From Alistipes sp. (GTDB taxonomy: Bacteria > Bacteroidota > Bacteroidia > Bacteroidales > Rikenellaceae), in the NCBI GenBank assembly GCA_017629985.1, contig JAGBWD010000027.1, positions 1 to 43,559 of the forward strand: DNA of 43,559 nt, written 5' to 3'. Position numbers and translations under genes: made by a program. Under the pieces are notes generated by a model that saw nothing but the letters and a program-made list of their open reading frames with translations, had not been told where the DNA came from and did not search any database. Below are positions 36,545-40,221 of the stretch, piece after piece (position 1 is the first letter of the stretch; each line of letters opens with the position of its first letter).

Positions 36545-37214
36545 AATAAAGATACTTTTAGTAGAAGACGAAAAGATGTTGGCGGAGATACTGTCAGATA
36601 CACTATCTGATAGGAACTTCGATGTTCATCTTGCGTATGATGGAATCCACGCATTGGAGGCCATAAAAAAGGAGCCTTTCGATGTTATTGTCAGCGATGT
36701 GATGATGCCAAATCTTGATGGCTACTCTCTTGCTAAAAAGCTCAGAAACGAGGGATTTAACACTCCAATACTATTCCTTACAGCACTATCTGCAACCGAG
36801 GATGTTGTTAAGGGATTTGAAACTGGAGGTAACGACTTCTTGAAAAAACCTTTTGCTATCGATGAACTTATCGTAAGGGTTAAGGCGTTGGCTGGAAGAG
36901 CTGAGGTTAGGGATACGCAAGAGACATCTTATGTTATAGGGGAATATGAGTTTAACCCATCTTCGAAGGAGCTAACCATACGAGGTCAGCAGACAACCTT
37001 GGCAGCACGAGAGGCTGCCGTGTTAGTTAGGCTGTGCCGCAAGAGAGGGCGTGTTGTTGAGGCATCGGAACTCTTGAAGGAACTTTGGGGCGATGATAAC
37101 TATTTTAACCTCCGCAGCCTCAATGTCTATATCACACGCCTGCGCAACCATCTCAAAGCCGACCCGACCGTAGAGATAGAGAGCGTCAGAGGTGTTGGCT
37201 ATCTGTTAAAATAA
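36534..37214 (+). CDS. OmpR/PhoB-family response regulator
   Basis: 226 residues. The receiver domain has VEDEKM, phospho-acceptor D55 in VIVSDVMMPNLDG, Thr in FLTAL and Lys in FLKKPF. The winged-helix DNA-binding domain (about 130-226) has LAAREAAVLVRLCRKRGRVV, LWGDDNYFNLRSLNVYITRLR and the final SVRGVGYLLK, which is the OmpR class signature. It overlaps the kinase gene and ends at the hairpin at 37217. Its likely own operator is the GTTAA array at 35233-35279 (inference). Related pairs in Bacteroides (RprX/RprY) act in stress and metabolism; orthology is not shown. Confidence 0.95.
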   Translation: MNNRIKILLVEDEKMLAEILSDTLSDRNFDVHLAYDGIHALEAIKKEPFDVIVSDVMMPNLDGYSLAKKLRNEGFNTPILFLTALSATEDVVKGFETGGNDFLKKPFAIDELIVRVKALAGRAEVRDTQETSYVIGEYEFNPSSKELTIRGQQTTLAAREAAVLVRLCRKRGRVVEASELLKELWGDDNYFNLRSLNVYITRLRNHLKADPTVEIESVRGVGYLLK

Positions 37215-37216
37215 TC

Positions 37217-37248
37217 AATGGCGACTACTCATTTGAGCTGTCGCCATT
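37217..37248. terminator. Bidirectional terminator, AATGGCGAC family
   Basis: A 9-bp stem (37217-37225 with 37240-37248) holds an inner CTC/GAG stem. It ends the two-component operon and the convergent small membrane protein gene. Confidence 0.8.
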
Positions 37249-37268
37249 TGTGTAGATGATATTTGTAA

Positions 37269-37658
37269 TTAATATCTTTTCTCTCGAAGCTTACCTACCA
37301 AATCGGGAAGGATGTATACAGCCAAGCACCACGACACCTGACCCATAGCATACAGCAATATAAGTTTCGATGTTGCAACGGGCAATACGGTGTTATCGCC
37401 AATAAATGTATAGTACGACACTAATGGTGTGAAAGCACTTGCAATTAGCAGTATAGCCTCCGTAATGCGGAATCGCAAGGCAAGGCCAAATCGTTTCCAA
37501 CATAGGGTTATAACCAATATGTTAAGAGCCAACATTGCTGCCACAATATAGGCGGTTATGCGCAACAGCTCTGCATCGAGACCGATATTAGCGATAATCA
37601 ATGTGCATAATGCCACAGCTACAACTTGATAGATTGAGATTAGTAAGTTCTGTTTCAT
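37269..37658 (-). CDS. Small four-helix membrane protein of unknown function behind a poly-G promoter
   Basis: 129 residues with four predicted membrane helices: about 5-24 (LLISIYQVVAVALCTLIIAN), 30-50 (LLRITAYIVAAMLALNILVI), 60-80 (FRITEAILLIASAFTPLVSYY) and 93-118 (LPVATSKLILLYAMGQVSWCLAVYIL as parts), and a basic tail (GKLREKRY). No domain or catalytic motif is recognised. The neighbouring 33523 gene is of the same size but not obviously similar. The gene is convergent with the two-component operon and has a separate promoter at 37727-37759 in which an 11-bp homopolymer sits in the spacer, so expression may vary by slippage. Its role is unknown. Confidence 0.8.
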   Translation of the reverse strand: MKQNLLISIYQVVAVALCTLIIANIGLDAELLRITAYIVAAMLALNILVITLCWKRFGLALRFRITEAILLIASAFTPLVSYYTFIGDNTVLPVATSKLILLYAMGQVSWCLAVYILPDLVGKLREKRY

Positions 37659-37726
37659 AGTTGTTATAGTTAAAAAGTGTTAAATGGTCTTTATGTTGAT
37701 TTTAAGCCACTCTATTATTTTGCCTA

Positions 37727-37759
37727 CAAATTTACCCCCCCCCCCACGAATTTTCCAAA
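37727..37759 (-). promoter_or_regulatory. Predicted promoter with an 11-bp poly-G spacer tract (possible phase-variable switch)
   Basis: On the minus strand TTTG (37756-37759) is followed by 21 nt and TAAATTTG (37727-37734). Eleven of the 21 spacer bases, directly beside the -7 box, are a run of G (C on the plus strand, 37735-37745). Loss or gain of one or two G would move the spacing within or beyond the normal 19-21 nt. The leader to the ATG at 37658 is about 60 nt. Confidence 0.65.
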
Positions 37760-37794
37760 TTTTCGGGCAAGAAAGTGTCGTGGAGGGATGATAA

Positions 37795-40221
37795 TTAGTT
37801 ACTCTTTACCACGTCAGCTGGGTTTTCGGTAGCAGCCTTCAACGAGCGGAGGGTTACAAGGCCGACCGTTACGGCGAGGACAACGGCGAGGGCGGCGATA
37901 TAGAGCCACCAAGGCTGTGCGATGCGGTTGGCAAACGACTCTAACCAGCGCGAGGTGATATACCACGCCACAGGTGCAGCGACAACGAAACAGCCGAGCA
38001 CAATCCACACATAACGCAGGTTAAGCAACTTCACTATTTGGCTGGTTGTCGCTCCGTAAACTTTTCGTACAGCAATCTCCGAGCGGCGGTGCTGCGTCTC
38101 GAACATCACGATACCAAAGACTCCCATCAGGGCGATAACGATAGCCAGCACAGCGAACATGCCGACAAGAATCATTACCTTCTTAGTCTCGCGATACTGC
38201 CACTCAATCCAGACATCAAGTGTGTACAATCCTGGTGCTTCAGATGTAGGAGCAAGCTCCTTAGACAACTCCGCAATATACTTATTAAAGGCAGCGATGT
38301 CTGCTCCTGCACGCAGGCGCACATAGAAGTTATTATGCCCGTCATTTGTATTGCGACATACTAATGCGTGGTACTGGTTAGGGTTGCCGACAGAGCCAAA
38401 CTGCACATCATTTATTAAACCTACTACCTTGCTATCGTAGACCTCCTCATCAATGCCCCAACCGATATCTTCCGCTACACTTGCAAAGAGAATAGCCTCA
38501 CGACGTTCGCCAGACGAAGGGGTGAAATTCTTGCCATCAACGGCTTTAAGACCGAAGAAGTCGAGGAAATTATGGCGCACAAAGTTAACATATAGCGTAG
38601 CCTCCTTGCCCTCTTTCTCAATGCGTGTGGACTGACCTACGCCAAAGATGTTGAAATATGATGATGTGGCATCTATGACATCGGGGTGTTGCATAACTCG
38701 CTCTACGACGGTTTCGGTGTGGTTATAGAGGTCATTGCTTGCAAATTGTACGATATTCTCCTTCTTAAATCCAAGGTCGTACTGTACCATATAGCGATAT
38801 TGGAGGAAGAATACCGATGTTACGATAATAAGAATCATCGCTACCGAGAACTGCACACCCACCATCACAGAGCGCAAACGGCGACCCGTTGCCGATTGAG
38901 CAAAGCCACCCTTAACGCCCATCGAAGCATTGAAACGAGTGATGTAGAAAGCAGGATATAGCGCAGCAACAAGGGCGAGCAGAATCATTAGTCCTACCAT
39001 CATCATAATCACCGGAATATTATCTCCAAGAGCCAACGAGCAAGTTACATATTGGGTAATGAAGCTCTCTTGAATGGTTATCATTAGATAGAAGGTAAGA
39101 GCCATTGAGATAAGTACCAAGCCGATAGCCTCAAACAAGAAGTTCCAACGCAGTGTTCCCTGACTTGCACCGAACACCTTGCATATATTCACCGCACGCA
39201 TACGCACAGGCACAAGCGCAAAGAAGAAGTTTACAAAGTTTATAAAGGCGATGATGACAATTACCAGAGCGATAGCAGTGAGGATGATGGGCGCAGATAT
39301 TTTGCCACTCTCGAATGTTGCGCCAAAAGCATCGTGGAAGTTACCGTGGTAGTACATATCGTCAATGCGTACAAGGCGTGTCGCGAGGATATGCACACCA
39401 TTCTCAATCTCCTCCTTCACATAGGCCTCATCCTCGGGATCTTCGGCAATCCACTCCTCGACCATTCCCAAGAACCACTGGGCATAGCTATCCTTGAAGT
39501 TCTTGATAAAATTCTCGGGGTCGGCATCCTCACGCAGACGAACAAAGGTGCAGTAGTTCCAGTTGTTGTTCTCGGTGGTATATACGCCCTCGTCACCCTT
39601 GATAATCTTCCAACTACCGAAGAGCGTGTTCTTGGGCATATCCTCATATATCGCAACTATGGTAAGCTCGTGCGTAGGCTTGCCGTCATTAAACCAATAT
39701 CCGCCCTCGTGGTAAATATTATCGCCAATGCCCACGCCCATAAGTTCGGCTACTGACTCCGCCATTATAACGGTATTAGGCTCTTTAAGTCGTGAGAAGT
39801 CGCCTGCGATGCACTCAAAACCAGCCATATCAGGAGTATTTGGCGTAGCACTTTTTATCTCCTCGGTGTACTTGTCGTAATCCAAATCGTTACGCTTGAC
39901 CCATATACGGATAGGCAACTGAGAAGGGCTGATTGAGAAAGCCTCCTCCACCTCGGGTGTCTTGGCAATAGCATCGTAGGCCGCCATACCTGGTGAGTTG
40001 GTACTCCACTGTATATCGTTAGGGTCATTGCCGAAGTTTGGCGAAATGATGTAGGTGCGGTCAGCATCCTTTATCGCACTATTGAATGTGAGCGTGTACC
40101 ACACCTGCGATGCGATGATGTAAAATGCCACAAAGGCGAGGGTCAAGCCCACTACATTGAGTAGCGATGCGACCTTGTAACGCTTGAGCGTCATCAGGAA
40201 ATTTTTGAAAGCAATCTTCAT
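37795..40221 (-). CDS. ABC transporter permease, dual MacB/FtsX-type
   Basis: 808 residues. One N-terminal helix (about 18-42), a periplasmic MacB-type domain (about 50-300), an FtsX block of three helices (about 310-425, VPVRMRAVNICKVFGASQGT), then a further helix (about 460-480), a second periplasmic domain (500-680) and a C-terminal FtsX block (about 690-800, RRSEIAVRKVYGATTSQIV). This double layout is common in Bacteroidetes. Such proteins act by mechanotransmission or export of peptides and lipids rather than import. It is the third gene of an ATPase-permease-permease operon. The substrate is unknown. Confidence 0.9.
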   Translation of the reverse strand: MKIAFKNFLMTLKRYKVASLLNVVGLTLAFVAFYIIASQVWYTLTFNSAIKDADRTYIISPNFGNDPNDIQWSTNSPGMAAYDAIAKTPEVEEAFSISPSQLPIRIWVKRNDLDYDKYTEEIKSATPNTPDMAGFECIAGDFSRLKEPNTVIMAESVAELMGVGIGDNIYHEGGYWFNDGKPTHELTIVAIYEDMPKNTLFGSWKIIKGDEGVYTTENNNWNYCTFVRLREDADPENFIKNFKDSYAQWFLGMVEEWIAEDPEDEAYVKEEIENGVHILATRLVRIDDMYYHGNFHDAFGATFESGKISAPIILTAIALVIVIIAFINFVNFFFALVPVRMRAVNICKVFGASQGTLRWNFLFEAIGLVLISMALTFYLMITIQESFITQYVTCSLALGDNIPVIMMMVGLMILLALVAALYPAFYITRFNASMGVKGGFAQSATGRRLRSVMVGVQFSVAMILIIVTSVFFLQYRYMVQYDLGFKKENIVQFASNDLYNHTETVVERVMQHPDVIDATSSYFNIFGVGQSTRIEKEGKEATLYVNFVRHNFLDFFGLKAVDGKNFTPSSGERREAILFASVAEDIGWGIDEEVYDSKVVGLINDVQFGSVGNPNQYHALVCRNTNDGHNNFYVRLRAGADIAAFNKYIAELSKELAPTSEAPGLYTLDVWIEWQYRETKKVMILVGMFAVLAIVIALMGVFGIVMFETQHRRSEIAVRKVYGATTSQIVKLLNLRYVWIVLGCFVVAAPVAWYITSRWLESFANRIAQPWWLYIAALAVVLAVTVGLVTLRSLKAATENPADVVKSN

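Follow-up and report, generated by a model that had tools for sequence, protein, structure and literature searches.

The window analysed here, a 43,559-nucleotide contig (JAGBWD010000027.1) from an Alistipes sp. metagenome-assembled genome (MAG; GCA_017629985.1), holds a poly-G tract of eleven bases in the spacer of a predicted promoter for a 129-aa membrane protein. Comparison across the genus identifies this tract as one copy of a shared promoter class that holds a G run of about nine, not as a lone oddity. What was observed is a shared element used again and again ahead of largely unrelated envelope genes, a tract that sits flush against the −7 box, a strong resting length of nine, and tract lengths that differ between relatives at the same site. 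We lean, by a narrow measure, towards reading the class as slippage-prone −33/−7 promoters with a resting length of nine Gs, in which gene activity may be tuned by growth or shrinkage of the run. In the mechanism that we envision, replication slippage would add or remove Gs in the spacer tract, and a restoring bias would return tracts to about nine. Each base gained or lost would alter the spacing and helical phase of the −33 and −7 boxes, whereby a minority of cells would express the gene at a different level. The G11 of the window, with its spacer of 21 bases, would be a tract off its resting state.

A promoter class shared across the genus

Read 5' to 3' on the minus strand, the window element runs TTTG-GAAAATTCGT-G11-TAAATTTG-T (37759-37726; Table 1). 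The spacer between TTTG and TAAATTTG counts 21 bases, 11 of them in one pure G tract between both promoter elements, the arrangement that characterizes slippage-type phase variation in a promoter spacer. The original prediction, made from the letters of the window, had described just such a run beside the −7 box, and coordinates and sequence agree with it. TAAATTTGT matches TANNTTTGY, the −7 consensus of Bacteroidales housekeeping (sigma-ABfr) promoters, and TTTG stands as the −33 box at a spacer of 21, a length less used here than the usual 19-20. A TANNTTTGY −7 box with a TTTG −33 box is the grammar described for Bacteroides in passages of two papers (PMC7366714, PMC12632263). This grammar is informative here, since TTTG-N18-22-TANNTTTG occurs seven times in the window against 0.58 expected. 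We consider the element very probably a real promoter, because it is conserved in many genomes and because C or T follows the −7 box in 50 of the 51 genus sites that have a −33 half.

The tract is the only G/C run of at least seven bases in the window; G11 occurs there once, and none of 100 dinucleotide shuffles produced one. The claim that it stands out among A/T-rich surroundings is therefore right as to the window's runs, but the tract is not unique in kind, and the G+C content of the window is 46%. Three further G tracts, of 10, 12 and 15 bases, lie in the same genome (G000), a MAG assembly of 1.76 Mb and 84% completeness; the closest relatives that bear a name are ruminant-gut MAGs labelled Alistipes or Tidjanibacter. 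An invertible promoter was rejected, as no inverted-repeat pair of at least 12 bases is present in 37300-38300. Rfam, run at gathering scores over the whole window, matched no RNA element, and a tRNA search found none.

The genus was sampled with 180 genomes, one per species. A scan for C runs of at least seven bases lying no more than eight bases from CAAANNTA (the complement of TANNTTTG) gave 124 matches in 76 genomes, compared with 20, counted by hand, for the reversed pattern. The run is flush with the box in 105 matches, found in 67 genomes, and separated from it by gaps of 1-7 bases in 19. The flush tracts comprise three G7, 19 G8, 76 G9, six G10 and a single G11, which is that of the window. 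Among the 60 unique sites with enough flank, 51 carry, by pattern match, a −33 half like AAAATTTGGAAAATTCGT, giving the common layout AAAATTTGGAAAATTCGT-G9-TAAATTTG-like. The pattern TTTGGAAAATT-N4-20-TANNTTTG gave 120 matches in 79 of the 180 genomes and none in the reversed-pattern columns; 58 of the 120 have a G run of at least six flush with the box. The 105 tracts in 67 genomes reject a unique oddity of the window's genome. An order-wide feature was likewise rejected, a scan of 393 genomes pointing to a mild general tendency only: it gave 100 matches besides the window's, with 35 flush and mostly G7 or G8 (G7/G8/G9 = 16/12/7), and its reversed-pattern control, for which no total was made, was clearly not empty. 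In one genome of another family (G491, f25), four G7-G8 tracts are flush with TANNTTTG, a possible independent case.

Table 1. Predicted promoter elements and adjacent genes in the window
Feature	Position	Strand	Remarks
Poly-G tract	37735..37745	-	G11 (C11 on the plus strand) in the promoter spacer, flush with the −7 box
−7 box TAAATTTG	37727..37734	-	Next base T, fits TANNTTTGY
−33 box TTTG	37756..37759	-	TTAG in relative L013
Linker GAAAATTCGT	37746..37755	-	Between TTTG and G11
Upstream half AAAATTTGGAAAATTCGT	37746..37763	-	Similar DNA at 51/60 unique readable tract-promoter sites
Gene for 129-aa hydrophobic membrane protein	37269..37658	-	ATG 68 bases past the end of the −7 box
FtsX/MacB-type permease gene, upstream	37795..40221	-	Pfam FtsX 4.6e-22, MacB_PCD 1e-16

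One rival account makes the tract irrelevant: the 129-aa gene would be transcribed by read-through from the FtsX-type gene or from another start. The two genes lie on the same strand with a gap of 136 bases, and a search of 37200-38000 revealed no terminator-like site. In the same interval, scanning for E. coli-type promoters gave six sites where 1.6 were expected, of which one falls between the gene and the tract promoter. We nonetheless hold this account to be very unlikely. The −33/−7 promoter and the leader to the ATG are conserved in three genomes, apart from the −33 box of one (L013, TTAG), and the element recurs before unrelated genes; E. coli-type hexamers, moreover, are not the grammar of this order as set out in parts of PMC7366714 and PMC12632263.

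Genes behind the tract promoters

Reading of 40 fetched loci and the window yielded 46 tract promoters with G6 or longer. For 42 of these, a frame with an ATG and 50 codons or more is present within 320 bases; four lack one. Judged by a crude hydrophobicity rule and with the window left out, 39 of 41 class proteins have a signal-like N-terminus, compared with 106 of 283 background open reading frames (ORFs) of the same loci. When proteins are grouped by shared four-letter words, 21 of 22 families are signal-like. Envelope or surface proteins are the targets expected of slippage-type promoter switches, and this rough rule would place the same 39 of 41 among them. Pfam was run on 26 of the 42, among them the protein of the window, and 15 of the 26 match nothing. 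The families found comprise M16 and S41 peptidases, an aspartyl protease with a PDZ domain, three OMP_b-brl_3 barrels, a TPR lipoprotein and a DUF4440 protein; BACON and lipocalin-like hits fall short of the curated cut-off. By these predictions the class promoters stand mostly before largely unrelated cell-envelope genes. The product of the window gene, for which the Pfam search found no match, is itself a membrane protein, without known surface exposure.

Two arrangements of the promoters were seen in passing. At one locus (L118:5911, 8093 and 12965, minus strand), a separate G9 promoter precedes each of three genes that neighbour one another at distances of 2-5 kb, and their products are a 182-aa secreted protein, a TPR lipoprotein and an S41 peptidase. 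Paired G9-type promoters occur at two other loci (L116, L117), with no ORF found behind the second.

Tract length at single sites and across genomes

A match to the 129-aa protein is present in 11 of the 180 genomes, the window's own included, and a search of genome contigs for the protein gave three loci. At the window's promoter site the tract is G11 in the window and G9 in both L013 (genome G094) and L025, a difference at the same site in relatives of the kind that slippage would leave. L013 is identical to L024 across 600 bases on each side; L015 and L026 cover residues 87-129 only and are uninformative for the promoter; and a relative with 63% identity (G022) has no such tract upstream. 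For the M16 promoter 30 of the M16 loci were read, 14 of them at 77% identity or more. Twelve of the 14 have readable upstream DNA, and in these species the tract is G9 in nine, G8 in two (one interrupted) and missing in one. One of the two unreadable loci, that of G049, is apparently split over two contigs, with G6 there, and none of the other 16 loci has a tract flush with the box. Tract length in relatives thus varies at the window site and is nearly constant at the M16 promoter; the relatives compared neither establish nor exclude a constant length across strains, the outcome that the original prediction had named as speaking against a switch.

That the window's tract is an assembly or sequencing artefact of poly-G is scarcely credible. 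The assembly is a MAG, and homopolymer lengths can be miscounted in assemblies. Against this, the same promoter carries G9 in two other genomes, the class is present in 67 genomes, and the G9 excess is also found in a one-contig genome; only the exact number 11 is open to doubt.

The preference for nine extends beyond promoters. Over the 180 genus genomes, runs of exactly G8, exactly G9 and at least ten Gs total 1729, 4732 and 534, with G9 above G8 in 148 genomes and equal in nine. Other genera of the order, sampled with 123 genomes, hold 1121 G8 against 363 G9, with G8 above G9 in 101 genomes, equal in 12 and below in 10. In the one-contig genome (G152, 400 kb), runs of 6/7/8/9/10 number 43/2/3/19/2, where a second-order Markov model expects 99.7/21.3/2.3/0.7/0.3; the corresponding counts are 9/0/0/8/0 in G013 (200 kb) and 63/8/3/0/0 in the control G208 (200 kb). 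The near-hole at seven and the peak at nine indicate that long G runs form a separate class. Such a distribution is not given by chance. Slippage could give this shape, and we infer a slippage set-point by which G runs, once long enough, would be driven to nine; selection for nine in many contexts may be an alternative source of the peak. Among genomes with at least five tracts, the window's genome has the top share of tracts of at least ten (G8/G9/≥10 = 0/3/4), and since its tracts run long, a G11 promoter fits that genome.

The effect that a change of length would have was predicted from spacing in 506 kb of the genus (43 sequences, of which 40 had been picked because they contain tract promoters). 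Where no G run lies between the boxes, spacings of N18, N19, N20 and N21 occur 7, 25, 36 and 7 times, compared with 0-2 in the reversed sequence, and ordinary promoters have a smaller group at 10-14. With the usual linker, G8, G9, G10 and G11 give spacers of 18, 19, 20 and 21. Each slipped base should thus shift promoter strength; on spacing usage, the spacer of 21 in the window is probably weaker than G9 or G10 would be. Linker and tract lengths show no compensation (rho −0.07, n = 55), and a promoter length kept fixed through spacing compensation was rejected on this ground.

Two further accounts of the G9 peak have to be weighed. In the first, a neutral mutational set-point drives long G runs to nine, promoters tolerate one, and length changes occur without a selected regulatory role. 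The peak is indeed genome-wide, with G9 tracts inside ORFs and between them; promoter tracts share its mode, and the missing spacing compensation also agrees. Genomes whose other tracts are longer on average also tend, weakly, to have longer promoter tracts (rho 0.26, p 0.008, n = 104; rho 0.29 with a permutation p of 0.01 when taken per genome, n = 66; rho 0.23, p 0.019 once G000 is left out). We judge this account unlikely, as a tolerated accident would not choose a flush position (105 of 124 matches), a conserved element and envelope genes (39 of 41). In the second, G9 and the A/T-rich upstream blocks are a fixed regulatory or structural element, either a regulator site or a bent, rigid promoter, in which nine is functional and constant and of which the G11 in the window would be a degenerate copy. 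The 18 upstream bases and G9 are strongly conserved across species, which would suit this, as would the slightly sharper peak of promoter tracts compared with other tracts of the same 67 genomes (G8/G9/≥10 = 19/76/7 vs 613/1175/167, p 0.013). However, thousands of G tracts that do not adjoin such a box have the same mode of nine, promoter tracts weakly follow the genome-wide mean as noted above, and G7, G8, G10 and G11 sites exist. Nine Gs are also kept when linker length differs, in eight of 11 unusual-linker sites (one of them doubtful, with a 35-base linker) vs 34 of 44 with the usual linker. A fixed element, too, is improbable.

Returning to the slippage-prone class, several observations weigh against it. 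With G9 in 76 of the 105 promoter sites and in nine of 12 M16 species, the tract has a strong resting length, which goes against a simple random ON/OFF switch. The majority length at the M16 promoter hardly changes from one species to the next, including those with different flanks, and this stability fits both a switch with a strong resting state and a fixed element. A spacer of 20, the commonest in ordinary promoters, occurs in one of 58 tract promoters, so that optimal spacing alone does not account for the resting length, and the slightly sharper peak of promoter tracts leaves room for a constrained length. G9 falls below G8 in 23 of the 180 genus genomes, and the tract-length correlations are weak and drawn from species that are not independent. 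The exact window promoter has a readable tract in three independent genomes only, a small sample, and the window comes from a MAG, in which a miscounted tract length is possible. Of the original prediction of a phase-variable promoter we therefore keep the very probable real promoter, the G11 against G9 and G9 at the same site and the slippage-like distribution in the genus, and regard a simple random ON/OFF as less likely. Switching in the window promoter is what we infer from these sequence comparisons. A more far-reaching idea, that a genus-specific mutational or repair bias would hold long G runs at exactly nine and that such runs would be built into a standard promoter module before many envelope genes as a genome-wide slippage switchboard, is put forward tentatively, as a possibility that we would sooner doubt than assert.

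Other long G tracts came to light along the way. In loci of three genomes (G002, G007 and G008; L156-L195), many G9 tracts lie, by eye, a few bases past stop codons, outside promoters. At L187:1979, L195:2007 and L176:2046, G9 stands near the N-terminus of frames of about 700 aa that look SusC/TonB-like by eye, and these are possible in-gene slippage sites. In the window's genome, a G12 (L010:4355-4366, that is G000:C33:16854-16865) falls within the stretch of a DUF3575 gene that encodes the signal peptide, and this gene adjoins genes matching DUF3868 and Fimbrillin_C in Pfam; as assembled, its start codon and body are in different frames, an arrangement known from frame-type slippage switches. 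A G10 (L010:4694-4703) situated about 330 bases upstream from that tract follows directly after TTTTGTA on the minus strand, and no TANNTTTG box stands behind it in the stretch viewed. The longest tract found in this genome, a G15 in an A/T-rich stretch (L009:4293-4307), has a 327-aa ORF on one side and a 338-aa helix-turn-helix-like ORF on the other.

Known switches and significance for gut Bacteroidales

The closest parallel considered is porA of Neisseria meningitidis. According to passages of one paper (PMC3639595), a poly-G tract lies there between −35 and −10, a strain with 11 Gs has variants with nine and ten, these changes alter the level of expression rather than acting as a simple ON/OFF, and mismatch-repair mutations raise mononucleotide-tract switching in meningococci. 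The present class shares with porA, so far as those passages describe it, a mononucleotide G tract in a promoter spacer and an envelope protein as product; it differs in its −33/−7 boxes in place of −35/−10, in the flush tract, in the resting length of nine and in that one common element stands ahead of many genes. The Bordetella fim promoters contain a poly-C tract whose length changes alter the spacing, and are activator-dependent; the homopolymer in the promoter region is common to both, whereas no activator is known here. Mycoplasma lipoprotein promoters have poly-A spacers, several genes each with its own length-variable promoter. They resemble the present class in that multiple genes have their own tract, but here the tract is poly-G and many gene families are involved.

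Within the order itself, the invertible promoters of Bacteroidales, in the parts of PMC12632263 and PMC11868660 that treat them, are likewise variable promoters of surface genes. They are unlike the window element, which lacks inverted repeats of the length searched for and would vary by length change, not by inversion. Phase variation in Bacteroides means inversion in the corresponding parts of the same two reviews (PMC11868660, PMC12632263), the exception there being a 1990 table entry on temperature-dependent phase shifts. Among the literature matches listed, titles and abstract openings mention no slippage switching or poly-G tracts in Alistipes or other Bacteroidales.

Since the window tract belongs to a class, testing is possible outside an uncultured species. 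The scan offers 105 candidate sites, spread over 67 genomes that each represent one species. How tract length is fixed by a polymerase or repair system could be revealed by the pile-up at G9, a sharp signature that can be counted. The genus occurs in human and ruminant gut, and if the slippage reading is true, gut Bacteroidales would owe surface diversity to slippage as well as to DNA inversion.
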